Below are positions 12,095 to 24,521 of a stretch of 59,094 bases of DNA, one piece after another. Origin of the DNA: Bacillota bacterium (GTDB taxonomy: Bacteria; Bacillota; Bacilli; Alicyclobacillales; SLC66). Under the pieces are notes generated by a model. That model was not told the DNA's origin and ran no database searches. It saw only the letters and a list, made by a program, of their open reading frames with translations. Made by a program: the position numbers and the translations under genes. Location: the NCBI GenBank assembly GCA_021821055.1, contig JAKACX010000008.1, forward strand, positions 1-59,094. The letters run 5' to 3'. How positions within the stretch are numbered: position 1 is the first letter of the stretch; each line of letters opens with the position of its first letter.

Positions 12095-13705
12095 ATGGTA
12101 TCCTTTAAGACATATTCGGTTCCGGAGGAGGGGCAGGACTTGATTGAACTGGATGTCGTCGCACCGCCCCAACCGGGGCAAGCCCAAGCCCCTGTCAAGT
12201 GGGGCAAGGTGATCGACCAGGACGCGTGCATCGGGTGTCACGCGTGCACAGTCGCCTGCAAGATGGAACACCTGGTGCCGCTCAGCGTCAACCGGACCTA
12301 TGTGAAGCAGGTGGAAATCGGCGTCTATCCCGAGGTCAACCGGCAGTTCCAGATCACCCGCTGCAACCAGTGCGAAAAGCCCCCGTGCGTCGAAATCTGT
12401 CCGGTCACCGCGATGTTTCGCCGCCCGGACGGGATCGTCGACTTTGACCGGGATGTGTGCATCGGCTGCAAGGCCTGCATGGCGGCGTGCCCGTACGACG
12501 CCATCTATATCAATCCGCAGTCGAACAGCGCCGAGAAGTGCAATTTCTGCGCGCACCGCATCGACCAGGGGCTGGAGCCCGCGTGCGTCATCGTCTGTCC
12601 CGTCGACGCGATCATCGTCGGCAATCTGAATGACACCGGCAGCGAAGTGGTACAGCTCATCGCCCGCGAGAAGGCCGCCGTCCGCAAGCCGGAAAAGGGT
12701 ACGGATCCCAAGCTTTTTTACGTCGGGGCAAGCGGTTACACGTTGAACCCCGGCAAGGCGAATTACGAGAACATGCACATGTACTCCGAGCAGCGGGAAG
12801 GTTACCCCGTGAAACACAAGGCGCAAAGCGCGCACCACAGCGTGGCGGCGGCGCGGCTGGCGTACGACGTGCCGCACCATTCCCCCTGGCACTGGGAGGT
12901 TTCCCTTTACACCTGGACAAAATCGATCTCATCCGGCGTCTTCCTGTTGTTTGCGCTGCTCGTCTTTTCGGGTCAGCGTCTGAGCGCTCAGTGGGACGTG
13001 GCGACCGCGATTGTCGGCGGGATCTTCCTGGGTCTGACGGGCGTCCTGCTGATCTACGACCTTGAGCATCCGGCGCGTTTCATCCGCATCTTCACGCGGC
13101 CGCAGTGGAAGTCGTGGCTCGTGCGCGGGTCGTTCATCATCGCGGGCTACAGCGTCATCCTGCTCGCGCAGTTTGTCATGGGCGTCGCGGGGGCGACTGG
13201 AGGGAGCGTCGCCCTGGCCGTGCCGGGAGTCGTGCTGGCGGCGTTCACGGCGATGTACACCGCCTTCCTGTTTGCGCAGGCAAAAGGTCGCGACCTGTGG
13301 CAAAATCCCGCCCTGCCGTTGCACCTGCTCGCGCAGGCGACGCTCGCGGGGGCGGCCGCCTATTCACTGCTTGGCCTCTTCCTGCCGCTGTCGGCCGCAG
13401 CGCTTCTGATCGTGCATATCGCCCTGATCGCGTCGCTCGCGGCGCACATCGTGCTGACCCTCAGTGAACTGGTCATTCCCCATTCGATCGCCGACGCGAA
13501 ACGCGCCGCGCACCAGATGACCGCGGGGCGATACCGCGGATACTTCTGGACGGGGCTCGTGGCGGGCGCCCTGGCGCCGCTCGGGCTCAGCATGTTCACC
13601 GGCGTGCCGGCGCTGCCGCTGGCGGCCTCCGTCCTGGCCCTGGTCGGCCTTCTGGCGTATGAGCACGCGTTTGTGCAGGCGGGCCAGTCTGTTCCGCTCA
13701 GTTGA
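12095..13705 (+). CDS. Fused FeS-cluster subunit and NrfD-type membrane anchor of a molybdoenzyme
   Basis: The 536-residue protein fuses two subunits that are usually separate. Residues 40-175 carry sixteen Cys in four ferredoxin-like groups (C45/48/51/55, 90/93/98/102, 122/125/128/132, 149/152/164/168), the DmsB/PsrB/SoeB pattern for four [4Fe-4S] clusters. From about 270 there are eight hydrophobic helices of NrfD/DmsC/SoeC type (for example SSGVFLLFALLVFSG), which would exchange electrons with quinone. There is no twin-arginine signal, so the clusters face the cytoplasm. ATG 12095 has GCAGGAG upstream. The catalytic subunit follows 55 bp later. Confidence 0.87.
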   Translation: MVSFKTYSVPEEGQDLIELDVVAPPQPGQAQAPVKWGKVIDQDACIGCHACTVACKMEHLVPLSVNRTYVKQVEIGVYPEVNRQFQITRCNQCEKPPCVEICPVTAMFRRPDGIVDFDRDVCIGCKACMAACPYDAIYINPQSNSAEKCNFCAHRIDQGLEPACVIVCPVDAIIVGNLNDTGSEVVQLIAREKAAVRKPEKGTDPKLFYVGASGYTLNPGKANYENMHMYSEQREGYPVKHKAQSAHHSVAAARLAYDVPHHSPWHWEVSLYTWTKSISSGVFLLFALLVFSGQRLSAQWDVATAIVGGIFLGLTGVLLIYDLEHPARFIRIFTRPQWKSWLVRGSFIIAGYSVILLAQFVMGVAGATGGSVALAVPGVVLAAFTAMYTAFLFAQAKGRDLWQNPALPLHLLAQATLAGAAAYSLLGLFLPLSAAALLIVHIALIASLAAHIVLTLSELVIPHSIADAKRAAHQMTAGRYRGYFWTGLVAGALAPLGLSMFTGVPALPLAASVLALVGLLAYEHAFVQAGQSVPLS

Positions 13706-13760
13706 GCGCTCGGACAGGCCGCTTCGCATGGCCACACACTCGGGTTTGGAGGGAATCGCA

Positions 13761-16700
13761 ATGAGCGTTCGTGAAGAGCATGTCGCGTCGGTTAAAGGCT
13801 TCAACGGACTCAAGTCACACCCCGACCCCGCAAACTGGGATGATTGGGCTGAACTTGACCCAGCCGTCTGGCCGCGCAAGAAGTACCGCCATTACGACCT
13901 GATCCCCACCGTCTGCTTCAACTGCGAAGCGGCGTGCGGGCTGCTGGCCTACATTGACAAGGAGACAGGCGAGATCCGCAAACTTGAGGGTCACCCGCTG
14001 CACCCCGCGAGCCGCGGCAGAAACTGCGCCAAGGGCCCGGCCACGGTCAGCCAGGTGACCAATCCCGAACGGATCCTGTATCCGATGAAGCGCGTCGGCG
14101 AGCGCGGCGACGGCAAGTGGGAGCGGGCGACGTGGGACGAAGCGCTGGATGACATCGCCGCGCGCATCCGCAAGGCGATCGTGGAGGAACGACGCGACGA
14201 GGTCGTGTACCACGTCGGTCGGGCGGGCGAGGACGAGTACACGGAGCGCGTGCTCAAGTGCTGGGGCGTCGACGGGCTGTCGACGCACACCAATGTGTGT
14301 TCGTCCGGAGGCCGGGCCGGGTACGCGTTTTGGATGGGAATGGACCGCCCGGCGCCCGACTATGCCAATGCGCGCTTCATCCTGATGATGAGTTCGCATT
14401 TTGAGGCTGGCCACTACTTCAATCCAAACGCGCAACGCATCATGGAGGCGAAGAAGAACGGGACGAAGATCGCGGTCATTGACACGCGCCTGTCGAACAC
14501 GGCGTCCAAGGCCGACTACTGGCTCTCCCCATGGCCGGGGACGGAGTCGGCGTTGCTGCTTGCGCTGGCCAACGAACTGCTGCGCACGGACCGCTTTGAC
14601 CGCGAATTCATGCGCAAGTGGGTGAACTGGCGCGAATTTGTCGAGGACCGCCAGTATCTGCAGGAACTGCGGGACCGCGGGTTTGTCAAGAGCGTGCCGG
14701 ACGGGCGGACGTTCGACGACTTTGTGACGCTGATCAAGGAGATCTACAGCCACTACACGCCGGAATGGGCGCGGGAGGAGACGGGCATCGCGCCCGACGT
14801 GACGCGCCAGATCGGCGACGAGATCGCGCGGGCGGGTTCCGCGTTCACGACGAACATCTGGCGCAATGCGGCGGCGGGACACCTCGGCGGCTGGATGATC
14901 ACGCGCTGCCTGACGTTTCTCAATGTCCTCGTCGGCGCGATTGGCGAGGCCGGCAGCACGATACCGAATTCCTGGGTGAAGTTTGTGCCCGCCCGGAACA
15001 GCGCTCCGGCGCCGCTGCGAACGTGGAACGAGAATCACTGGCCGCGCGAATACCCCCTGTCGTTCTTTGAACTGAGTTTCTGCCTGCCGCACATCCTGCG
15101 CAAGCGCGACAAGCGGCTGGAGGTGTACTTCGCGCGCGTCGTGAACCCGGTCTGGACCTTCCCGGACGGCTTCACCTGGATCAATATGTTCAAGGAGCAG
15201 GACAGGGTGGGCCTGCACGTGACGCTCTCGCCAGTGTGGTCGGAGACGTCCCAGTTCTCGGACTACGTGTTGCCCATGGGTCTCGCGACGGAGCGCCACG
15301 ATCTGCACAGCTACGAGACGCACGCGGCGCAGTGGATCGGTTTTCGCCAGCCGGTGGCGCGCGTGTGGAAAGAGCGGCGCGGGGATGCGGTCGGCGACAC
15401 GCGCGACGCGAATCCAGGCGAGGTGTGGGAAGAAAACGAGTTCTGGATCGAACTGTCGTGGCGCATTGACCCGGATGGGAGCCTCGGCATTCGCGAGCAC
15501 TTTGAATCGCCTTATCGGCCGGGCGAGAAGATCACGATTCTCGAATACTACCAGTGGATCTTTGAAAACTCCGTGCCGGGACTGCCGGAGGCTGCCGCGG
15601 AGCAGGGGCTGACGCCCTTGGCGTACATGCAGAGGTACGCCTGCTTCGAAGTGACGAAGGACGTCTACGGCGTGCACCGAAGGACACTCGCGCCGGATGT
15701 CGTCAGCGACGCCTCCATCGTGCCCGAGGTGTCGGAGGCCGGCCGCTGGAACGGCGACCAGGCCGGCGTGTGGCTTGACCGCCCGGTTCACAGCCACAAT
15801 CACGCGCCGCTCCCGGGACCGTTCAGGAACGCCGAGGGCAAGTTTCGCGCCGGCATAGTGGTCGACGGCAAGCCGGTCAAGGGCTGGCCGACCCCGTCCG
15901 GCAAACTGGAGTTTTTCTCGACGACGCTGCGTGACTGGAACTGGCGCGAGTACGCGATCCCGATCTACCCGAGGAGCGACGCCGAGCGGAAATTGATGCC
16001 GCACATCGTCACGCAGGTGCATCACAAGACGATCGACCGGGACAAGAACGAGTACATCCTGCTGCCGACGTTCCGGCTGCCGATGCTGATCCACTCGCGC
16101 ACCAACGGAGCCAAGTGGCTGCACGAAATCGCGCACACCAACCCCGTCTGGATCCATCCCGAGGACGCACGGCGGCTGGACGTGGATACGGGGGACGAGG
16201 TGCGCATCAGTACGGAAATCGGTTCCATCGTCGACAAGGTGTGGGTGACGGAGGGCATCCGCCCCGGCGTGATCGCCTGCTCACACCACCTGGGACGGTG
16301 GCGGCTGCACGAGAGCACGGGGAGCGATCGCTGGAGTTCGTCGCTTGTGCGCATTGAGGAAGTGGAGAAGGGCAAGTGGCAGATGAGACAGTTGCACGGC
16401 CCGGCGCCGTTTGCCAGCAGCGACCCGGATTCGCAGCGCATCTGGTGGTCGGACGGAGGCGTGCACCAGAATGCGATTTTCCCCGTGCAGCCCGATCCGA
16501 TCAGCGGCATGCACTGCTGGCATCAGCGGATTCGCGTCGAGAAGGTGGCGGCGGGGGCGCACTACGGCGAAATTGAGGTGGATACCGAAAAGTCGTACCA
16601 GGTGTTCCTGCGCTGGCTGAAGATCACGCGTCCGGCGCCGGGGCCGGGCGGTCTGTACCGGCCTTACTGGATGCTGCGCGTGCTCAAGCCGCATCCGGAC

Positions 16701-16772
16701 GCGTACGTTGTTCCCGGCGAGGAGAAGCGCGAAACGGTGGAGGAAGTTGGGGCGTCAGGGCGGCGCGAGTAA
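13761..16772 (+). CDS. Cytoplasmic molybdopterin oxidoreductase, SoeA/PsrA-like catalytic subunit
   Basis: This is a 1003-residue member of the DMSO-reductase family. An N-terminal [4Fe-4S] site (C52, C55, C59, C89) is followed by the bis-MGD domains and a C-terminal dinucleotide-binding domain (LPTFRLPMLIHSRTNGAKWL, NPVWIHPEDARRL). Cys180 in THTNVCSSGG is the likely Mo ligand. There is no Tat signal, so it stays in the cytoplasm like sulfite dehydrogenase SoeA, unlike most Psr/Phs enzymes. With the fused FeS-NrfD protein it would form a quinone-linked complex. Sulfite oxidation is my best guess; polysulfide, thiosulfate or tetrathionate chemistry cannot be excluded. ATG 13761 follows GGAGGGA. 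Confidence 0.85.
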   Translation: MSVREEHVASVKGFNGLKSHPDPANWDDWAELDPAVWPRKKYRHYDLIPTVCFNCEAACGLLAYIDKETGEIRKLEGHPLHPASRGRNCAKGPATVSQVTNPERILYPMKRVGERGDGKWERATWDEALDDIAARIRKAIVEERRDEVVYHVGRAGEDEYTERVLKCWGVDGLSTHTNVCSSGGRAGYAFWMGMDRPAPDYANARFILMMSSHFEAGHYFNPNAQRIMEAKKNGTKIAVIDTRLSNTASKADYWLSPWPGTESALLLALANELLRTDRFDREFMRKWVNWREFVEDRQYLQELRDRGFVKSVPDGRTFDDFVTLIKEIYSHYTPEWAREETGIAPDVTRQIGDEIARAGSAFTTNIWRNAAAGHLGGWMITRCLTFLNVLVGAIGEAGSTIPNSWVKFVPARNSAPAPLRTWNENHWPREYPLSFFELSFCLPHILRKRDKRLEVYFARVVNPVWTFPDGFTWINMFKEQDRVGLHVTLSPVWSETSQFSDYVLPMGLATERHDLHSYETHAAQWIGFRQPVARVWKERRGDAVGDTRDANPGEVWEENEFWIELSWRIDPDGSLGIREHFESPYRPGEKITILEYYQWIFENSVPGLPEAAAEQGLTPLAYMQRYACFEVTKDVYGVHRRTLAPDVVSDASIVPEVSEAGRWNGDQAGVWLDRPVHSHNHAPLPGPFRNAEGKFRAGIVVDGKPVKGWPTPSGKLEFFSTTLRDWNWREYAIPIYPRSDAERKLMPHIVTQVHHKTIDRDKNEYILLPTFRLPMLIHSRTNGAKWLHEIAHTNPVWIHPEDARRLDVDTGDEVRISTEIGSIVDKVWVTEGIRPGVIACSHHLGRWRLHESTGSDRWSSSLVRIEEVEKGKWQMRQLHGPAPFASSDPDSQRIWWSDGGVHQNAIFPVQPDPISGMHCWHQRIRVEKVAAGAHYGEIEVDTEKSYQVFLRWLKITRPAPGPGGLYRPYWMLRVLKPHPDAYVVPGEEKRETVEEVGASGRRE

Positions 16773-20919: not shown

Positions 20920-21909
20920 TCAGTGACGTGAATCCAGCAGGACGCGACGGCCCCCGGCGTGCGAGGCCGCCGCGGCCTGATTGATCTCGGTGAGCCGCCG
21001 CATGTCGGCGCGGCCGATCGCTGGCGGCACGCGGTGCAGGATGGCCGCCGCCCACTGCTCGAGAGGCGAGGCGATCGCGGGGGGCAGTTCCGGCGTTTCC
21101 CACGAGTCGCCGACTTTCATCCGGACACTCTCGTTCTCCACCGCAAGCATGCCCTCCGTGCCGTAGACCTGAAGCTGGAACGGGCTCCCGCCGGAGGCGA
21201 AGCCAGTCTCGAGCACTCCGAGCGCGCCTTGCTCATATTCGACGATCACAACGGAGTTGTCGTCCACCGCGCGGCCCAGGGTGTGTGTCAGGCGCGCCGT
21301 GACCGCCTTGACCGCGCCGCCCAGCCTGTTGGTCAGGTAGATGGTGTGCGCTCCCAGGTCGATCAGGGCGCCCCCGCCGCACGTCTCCGGGTCAAAGAAG
21401 TACTCGGGCAGCCAGCCGTGCGGGCGGCCCTTTGCAGGCACGGCTCCGTTATGCGCCAGGCGGCAGCGGATCATGGTGATCTGGCCGAGGGATCCGCTGT
21501 CGACCACGCGCTGCACAAAGAGGTAGTATGGATGGGAAAGACGCGGCAGGGACAGCATGAGTTCCACGCCGGATGAGTCGACGGCGGCAAAGATGCCGTC
21601 GCACTCCTCGACGGACAGGCCCAGAACCTTCTCGGAGAAGATGTGTTTCCCGTTTTTGGCCGCCTGCACGATCACGTCGCGGTGCATGCTGGTCGGGGTA
21701 TCGACAATGACGCCGTCGATATCCGGTCTGGCGAGGAGCGCGGCGAGGTCCTGATGGAATGGGACGCCGAGTTCTTCAGCCCAGGAGCGTCCCCGCGCGG
21801 CATCCTCGTCCCACACGGCGGAAATGCGCATGTCCGGGTGGCTGTTCGCCTGTCTGGCGTAGTCGTTTGCATGGACGTGCCAGCGGCTGAGCATTGCGAC
21901 CGAAAGCAT
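20920..21909 (-). CDS. Gfo/Idh/MocA family oxidoreductase
   Basis: The 329-residue predicted NAD(P)-dependent dehydrogenase of sugars or inositol-like compounds has a Rossmann half (DGVIVDTPTSMHRDVIVQAA, then HIFSEKVLGL at the usual EKP position) and a C-terminal substrate domain (GGGALIDLGAHTIYL). The first loop reads MLSRWHVHANDY instead of GxGxxG, a variant I associate with one Gfo/Idh subgroup. ATG 21909 is preceded by GAGGAGG, which overlaps an upstream ATG at 21924. It is convergent with the VOC gene, with only 10 bp between. Confidence 0.87.
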   Translation of the reverse strand: MLSVAMLSRWHVHANDYARQANSHPDMRISAVWDEDAARGRSWAEELGVPFHQDLAALLARPDIDGVIVDTPTSMHRDVIVQAAKNGKHIFSEKVLGLSVEECDGIFAAVDSSGVELMLSLPRLSHPYYLFVQRVVDSGSLGQITMIRCRLAHNGAVPAKGRPHGWLPEYFFDPETCGGGALIDLGAHTIYLTNRLGGAVKAVTARLTHTLGRAVDDNSVVIVEYEQGALGVLETGFASGGSPFQLQVYGTEGMLAVENESVRMKVGDSWETPELPPAIASPLEQWAAAILHRVPPAIGRADMRRLTEINQAAAASHAGGRRVLLDSRH

Positions 21910-22031
21910 GTGTGGCCTCCTCATCGATCACGCAGGATCAATGGACTATGTAGCGCTTACACTAGTCATTGTAGGCATCCGCAGTCTTTCGGTCAAAGGG
22001 ATTGCGTGGAAGCGCGGCGGCGCGCGCCGCT

Positions 22032-24097: not shown

Positions 24098-24133
24098 CGA
24101 TGCCAGGCAGGGGCGGCCCCTTGCCTGGCATCG
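24098..24133 (-). terminator. Strong hairpin after the thioredoxin gene
   Basis: A 12-bp perfect stem (24098-24109 with 24122-24133), extended by GGGG/CCCC around a 3-nt loop, starts 12 nt after the thioredoxin stop. No T-run follows on either strand. It may act as a weak or factor-assisted terminator, or as a 3' stabiliser of the thioredoxin mRNA. Confidence 0.5.
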
Positions 24134-24145
24134 TGTGCGGCGGAC

Positions 24146-24451
24146 TCAGGAATGCGCGAAGCGTTTGACTTCCGCCTCGGGCGCATAGCCCACGCGGCGC
24201 GCCGTCTCGCGGCCATTCTTGATCTGGACGAGCGTCGGGATGCTGCGGACTCCGAACTGGCTTGCCAGTTGCGGTGTCCGGTCAACGTCCACAAAGAAGT
24301 ACTCCACATCTTTGTCCGTATCGGACAGCTTGGAGACCACCGGTCTCAGCATGCGGCAAGACGGTCACCAGTCAGCGGCAAAGTCAAGGACAACGGGCTT
24401 CGTTGCCTTCGTCACGAGCGTGCCGTATTCCGCAGCCGTAATGGTTTTCAT
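24146..24451 (-). CDS. Thioredoxin with in-frame UGA at first active-site Cys (candidate selenoprotein)
   Basis: The 101-residue thioredoxin fold reads without a flaw except for TGA at 24365-24367 (codon 29). Before it comes KPVVLDFAADW and after it PSCRMLRPVVSKLS, so the active site is W-U-P-S-C where thioredoxins have WCxxC. The cis-Pro loop (VRSIPTLVQIKNG) and the C-terminal strand and helix are intact, which argues against decay. A hairpin at 24333-24347, 17 nt after the UGA, fits a bacterial SECIS. ATG 24451 follows AAAGGGGG and the gene has its own promoter. If UGA is not decoded, only 28 residues are made. A sequencing error or a recent nonsense mutation is the alternative. Confidence 0.75.
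24333..24347 (-). promoter_or_regulatory. Candidate SECIS hairpin in the thioredoxin mRNA
   Basis: On the minus strand, 17 nt after the UGA, GAGACC pairs with GGUCUC around a GGU loop. GCU/AGC can extend the stem past a 2-nt bulge. Bacterial SECIS elements lie just after UGA and have a short upper stem and a small apical loop with an early G, as here. Confidence 0.6.
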
Positions 24452-24521
24452 CGTTGAGGACCCCCTTTTGCCCCGTCCTACAGCCGTCGCCGCCCATGAT
24501 CTGCGGCGATGGACTCCCCCC

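Follow-up and report, generated by a model that had tools for sequence, protein, structure and literature searches.

The window, that is the whole stretch of 59,094 nucleotides analysed here (contig JAKACX010000008.1 of a Bacillota bacterium), carries on its minus strand a thioredoxin gene of 101 codons (24451→24149), the single in-frame interruption of which is a TGA at codon 29 (24367–24365), the nucleophile position of a W-U-P-S-C motif. The product reads MKTITAAEYGTLVTKATKPVVLDFAADW-U-PSCRMLRPVVSKLSDTDKDVEYFFVDVDRTPQLASQFGVRSIPTLVQIKNGRETARRVGYAPEAEVKRFAHS. With residue 29 read as Cys, residues 2–99 matched the Pfam model Thioredoxin (PF00085) at 79.3 bits (E 2.5e-22; gathering score 23.5 bits), in agreement with an earlier, sequence-only reading of this DNA, which had described, without naming the strand, a 101-residue thioredoxin broken only by TGA at the nucleophilic Cys. 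Cys32, cis-Pro72 (SIPT) and Gly88 are present and invariant across the family of homologues with UGA at this codon (U-Trx); together with the true stop at 24148–24146 they bear out the description of the cis-Pro loop and the C-terminus as intact. The ribosome-binding site was likewise found as claimed, 9 nt before the ATG, whereas the promoter, also called intact, found no support, as a sigma-70 consensus scan located none. An Rfam search of the window gave no matches. Structure prediction with AlphaFold2 on the family alignment (pLDDT 96.3) returned the thioredoxin order of strands and helices; one helix begins at residue 30, which fits residue 29 being the nucleophile of a thioredoxin. Coordinates of all features are given in Table 1.

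Table 1. Features of the predicted selenocysteine (Sec) thioredoxin locus, in window coordinates
Feature	Position	Strand	Basis
Predicted Sec-thioredoxin coding sequence, 101 codons, ATG at 24451	24149..24451	-	Translation, Pfam match
UGA codon 29, predicted Sec, nucleophile of W-U-P-S-C	24365..24367	-	Identical codon in all collected homologues
Cys32 codon, resolving residue, invariant	24356..24358	-	Translation, family alignment
Predicted bacterial SECIS hairpin, stem GAGACC/GGUCUC, loop GGU (24341-24339), within coding sequence	24333..24347	-	
cis-Pro72 codon (SIPT loop), invariant	24236..24238	-	Translation, family alignment
Probable ribosome-binding site AAAAGGGGG, G-rich, 9 nt before ATG	24461..24469	-	Sequence
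True stop codon TGA	24146..24148	-	Homologues stop there too (TAA, TAG or TGA)
16-bp inverted repeat just past stop, no T-tract; possible transcript end	24098..24133	.	

Homologues were collected by a protein search of 60 relatives and by scanning 84,980 genomes for a sequence pattern. Nine of the 60 relatives contained a homologue with one TGA (38–60% identity), which in each sequence that was read falls on the same codon, and the scan for W-UGA-P-x-C-xx-L-x-P-V-V returned 40 loci, which include some of those from the relatives. The pattern required UGA-P and V-V, and the invariance of these residues is thus partly by construction; the protein search did not require them, yet agreed with the scan. 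The 40 loci encode intact thioredoxins of about 100 residues, except one that is cut by the edge of the retrieved stretch, and all belong to named Bacilli or to unnamed Bacillota assemblies. Named genera were Planococcus, Planomicrobium, Sediminibacillus, Aquibacillus, Virgibacillus, Fictibacillus, Mesobacillus, Paenibacillus, Aneurinibacillus, Melghirimyces, Ferroacidibacillus, Alicyclobacillus and others, which we take to be mainly aerobic. The motif was present in 13 of 399 sampled Bacilli, with no hit for a reversed control pattern; viral contigs gave no match to the UGA motif, and plasmids only trxA-like matches below 60% identity.

Recurrence of the UGA at the same codon in relatives and scan loci excludes, as judged from these sequences, a chance origin, and dN/dS values of 0–0.2 downstream of it in close pairs indicate that purifying selection acts past the UGA. 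The assembly is fragmented and 74% complete, and TGA differs from a Cys codon by one base, so that a pseudogene or a sequencing error, in which TGC or TGT was mutated or misread to TGA and a 28-residue fragment was left, had to be weighed. It was rejected on the conservation of the identical UGA in all homologues of many genera; together with the low dN/dS past the UGA, the constrained synonymous sites of the hairpin described below and the lack of a Cys version in 200 Bacilli genomes, this leaves it a negligible probability. The same-codon UGA in independent genomes also rules out the base-calling error at the TGA that the sequence-only reading had named as its own possible undoing.

The hairpin with a GGU loop was located exactly where that reading had placed it, at 24347–24333 (minus strand), with 6 bp and 17 nt between the UGA and the stem, and proved to be constrained across genera. 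Folding of the region after the UGA, which had been proposed as a check, gave a divided result: the 25-nt stretch around the hairpin stood out (−9.2 kcal/mol, z −2.5), whereas the 51-nt window after the UGA was unexceptional by folding energy alone (z −1.0). Because of the latter value, the case for a SECIS element rests on synonymous-site conservation and pairing. Two hairpin classes, defined by hairpin sequence, were distinguished among 46 sequences (a few genomes counted twice), and none fell outside both. In the majority class (38/46) P37-V38-V39 is encoded throughout by CCG-GTG-GTC, the stem is G-R-G-R-C-C / G-G-U-C-U-C and the GGU loop lies 27–29 nt from the U of the UGA; the stem varies by A-U/G-U changes only, with no two-sided covariation. 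The minority class (8/46) forms an alternative hairpin 5 nt nearer to the UGA, with a GGUC loop at 22–25, and shows one compensatory G-C/A-U change, which arises from a synonymous change in a Val codon and an Arg/Gln replacement. Stem pairs are 100% paired in both classes. Third-base entropy at P37-V38-V39 (P8/V9/V10) was 0.7–1.0 bits vs. 1.5–2.0 bits at other conserved codons (41 sequences), which indicates that the synonymous sites of the hairpin are constrained across genera. A GGU loop similarly spaced from the UGA is also a feature of the E. coli fdhF SECIS.

The 5-nt offset between two alternative SECIS hairpins in orthologous genes amounts to a recoding signal that moved inside a conserved coding sequence. 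In one Sec-thioredoxin (L099, genome G147) the loop is GGGC in place of GGUC and is without the usual GU, a deviation that the SelB of that genome may tolerate.

The genome from which the window derives (2.34 Mb, 101 contigs, 74% complete) was searched for selA, selB, selC and selD. The selA gene is split over two contig ends (C99 and C10; 339 and 280 bits, both above cut-off), and selB is likewise divided, between the end of C100 and the start of C7, in pieces that share a 43-residue overlap and each score under the whole-protein cut-off. The selD gene (C10:780–1709, L010) scored 396 bits and has its own in-frame TGA in TEKSGUGCKIGP, by which the SelD of this genome is predicted to be a selenoprotein itself. 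A tRNA-Sec gene was found at 60.4 bits (gathering 47), with the anticodon loop CUUCAAA (UCA anticodon). As all four components are present, the objection that the genome might lack selABCD falls away. Formate dehydrogenase was considered as a further selenoprotein of the genome and rejected, the only candidates being sub-cut-off molybdopterin oxidoreductases without internal stops; the window itself contains, at 13659–16772, a large molybdopterin oxidoreductase-like ORF of 1037 aa with no in-frame UGA, which scored 114 bits, under the cut-off, with the formate dehydrogenase model.

Across genomes, selA was detected in 10/10 with U-Trx vs. 20/51 others among the window genome and its 60 relatives (n = 61), and, above cut-off, in 7/7 vs. 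20/60 in a Bacilli sample. Pooled, this gives 17/17 vs. 40/111 (Fisher p 2e-7, uncorrected for shared ancestry). Scores for tRNA-Sec were 53–69 bits in 15/16 U-Trx genomes, and the best score in ten selA-less genomes was 50.1 bits, where hits up to that value are probably cross-hits of tRNA-Ser. The exception, a relative with a U-Trx gene (G013), gave no clear tRNA-Sec (best 49.7 bits), possibly owing to an assembly gap. Overall, selA occurred in 30/61 genomes of the first set and in 27/67 sampled Bacilli, the latter enriched for seven genomes carrying the U-Trx gene. The sequence-only reading had called a Sec thioredoxin unusual for an aerobic Bacilli relative, but by these counts Sec is not unusual in this group.

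These data also bear on a reading in which the UGA is a regulatory stop or is decoded as another residue, as Trp or Cys through near-cognate readthrough or a reassigned code. Low-level readthrough of UGA is common in bacteria. This explanation is nevertheless very improbable, though somewhat less so than an error at the codon, as the gene's own stop is TGA, the constrained hairpin follows directly past a UGA that occupies the catalytic nucleophile, and, among the genomes checked, the gene occurs only with selA and nearly always with tRNA-Sec. The sequence-only proposal of a Sec thioredoxin is hence supported by the conserved UGA, the constrained hairpin and the presence of selA, selB, selD and tRNA-Sec, and we conclude that the locus almost certainly encodes a cytosolic selenocysteine-containing thioredoxin, in which Sec29 would be inserted by SelB with the aid of the hairpin and which is an addition to the Cys-type TrxA.

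The relation to Cys thioredoxins was assessed in a tree, in which 24 U-Trx and 22 Cys thioredoxins (WCGPC or WCAPC) separated perfectly with 100/100 support. A Cys orthologue with W-C-P-x-C-xx-L-x-P-V-V was found in none of 200 Bacilli genomes. Orthologues with TGC or TGT at codon 29, as the sequence-only reading had expected, thus did not appear: the whole clade found has Sec, and the Cys homologues form a separate TrxA clade. Within the limits of the searches, the Bacilli W-U-P-x-C clade apparently uses Sec only. The window protein shares with TrxA (TIGR01068; WCGPC) the fold, the Trp before the site, the resolving Cys, the cis-Pro and the C-terminal Gly, and its best TrxA matches are 37–46% identical; it differs in the Sec nucleophile, in the Pro at motif position 2 instead of 3 and in its separate clade (100/100). 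The TIGR01068 cut-off of 96.8 bits was missed by the window protein (89.3 bits) and by its relatives (89.6–93.1 bits). The UPxC motif (UPYC in one sub-group) recalls CPYC of glutaredoxin and CPHC of DsbA, and the Pro at motif position 2 may give the protein a redox couple unlike that of TrxA. An ordinary Cys thioredoxin (WCAPC) is also present in the window genome, near selA: a NifU-like gene followed by the thioredoxin gene (L100:4233–4913, contig C99) lies about 2 kb before selA, and many relatives likewise have a Cys thioredoxin close to selA.

Sec-containing thioredoxins with UxxC are an established selenoprotein family, of which seven sequences were known in 2006 (PF00085), among them those of Treponema denticola, Geobacter spp., Anaeromyxobacter and Carboxydothermus (PMC1794560); a 2026 review lists the family as WP_010956703.1 and cites biochemistry by Kim et al. 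2015 (PMC13188914). The window protein has the features of this family, with an in-frame UGA first in CxxC and the resolving Cys kept, within a thioredoxin domain and in a genome with Sec machinery. It differs in that the genomes of the 2006 table are mostly anaerobes, whereas the window clade occurs in mainly aerobic Bacilli, and in its motif U-P-x-C, for which no Cys version was found; the likeness to the Treponema Sec-thioredoxin is at the level of Pfam and motif. Other selenoproteins with a thioredoxin-like fold and a Sec redox motif are SaoT (NF040730), HUIPC (NF047660) and TsoB (NF045694), but the window protein matched neither SaoT nor HUIPC and reached 32 bits of 805 for TsoB. No NCBIfam model (June 2026) names the W-U-P-x-C Sec-thioredoxin clade, so that automatic annotation probably truncates the gene at the UGA. 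No description of a Sec-thioredoxin in Bacilli was found in the open-access literature searched. The window protein would accordingly join the known Sec-thioredoxin family, the new element being an apparently all-Sec W-U-P-x-C clade in largely aerobic Bacilli. According to the 2026 review, aerobic bacteria rarely retain selenoproteins (PMC13188914), although another paper counts about 40% of Sec users as aerobic (PMC5029168).

From known SelB biochemistry, the GGU-loop hairpin would direct SelB-GTP-Sec-tRNA(Sec) to insert Sec at position 29. As in other thioredoxins, the nucleophile would sit at the N-terminus of helix 2, and Sec29 would attack substrate disulfides as a selenolate. Cys32 would resolve the mixed selenenylsulfide, after which a thioredoxin reductase, the presumed partner, would re-reduce the protein, an extra thioredoxin next to the ordinary Cys TrxA. 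The likeliest role is that of a general reductant in aerobic cells.

Gene neighbourhoods were inspected at the 40 loci. In 15/40, mainly from Bacillaceae and Planococcaceae, U-Trx has a PhnC/PhnE-type ABC transporter at a distance of a few kb or less, and 13 of these 15 also have a PhnD-type binding protein, one representative of which scored 172 bits (cut-off 250) with TIGR04553, a putative selenate binding protein. A PdaB-like deacetylase is also near U-Trx in the 15/40 PhnC/PhnE/PhnD-type loci. Sec-type selD, with UGA at the same site as in the selD of the window genome, is present in 9/40, and a GT4 glycosyltransferase in 8/40 (GPMC system 290–306 bits, cut-off 400; SenB 90–97 bits, cut-off 300), which in Paenibacillus filicis is located directly downstream of U-Trx on the same strand. 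PhnCED-type transporter, Sec-type selD and GT4 glycosyltransferase are grouped in loci L049, L057, L061, L064, L070, L076, L080, L082 and L086, and this gene group is possibly a locus for selenium uptake and selenosugar formation.

Such neighbours suggest, at the level of gene context, a link between U-Trx and selenium assimilation, and raise the alternative that the protein is dedicated to reducing selenite or selenium carriers for SelD instead of acting as a general reductant; this concerns its function only and leaves its identity as a Sec-thioredoxin untouched. The transporter, selD and SenB/GPMC-like glycosyltransferase counts given above favour it. In the window and in Ferroacidibacillus, however, the neighbours of U-Trx are not selenium genes (a Gfo/Idh/MocA-like dehydrogenase gene downstream, at 20920–21924 on the minus strand, is syntenic with Ferroacidibacillus, L060), most of the genes next to U-Trx are transcribed from the other strand, which speaks against an operon, and a general thioredoxin role needs no link to gene neighbours. 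We consider the dedicated role unlikely, albeit with an appreciable chance. The fuller proposal, that the all-Sec W-U-P-x-C subfamily of aerobic Bacilli is a selenium-dependent reductant which feeds selenide to SelD, is more doubtful still; if true, the selenium supply would sustain its own uptake chain, SelD being a selenoprotein itself.

Sec-thioredoxins were previously described mainly from anaerobes. As the clade occurs in Bacilli that can be cultured, among them Planococcus, Sediminibacillus and Fictibacillus, it offers a tractable system in which to ask what makes the cost of Sec in a thioredoxin worthwhile for an aerobe.
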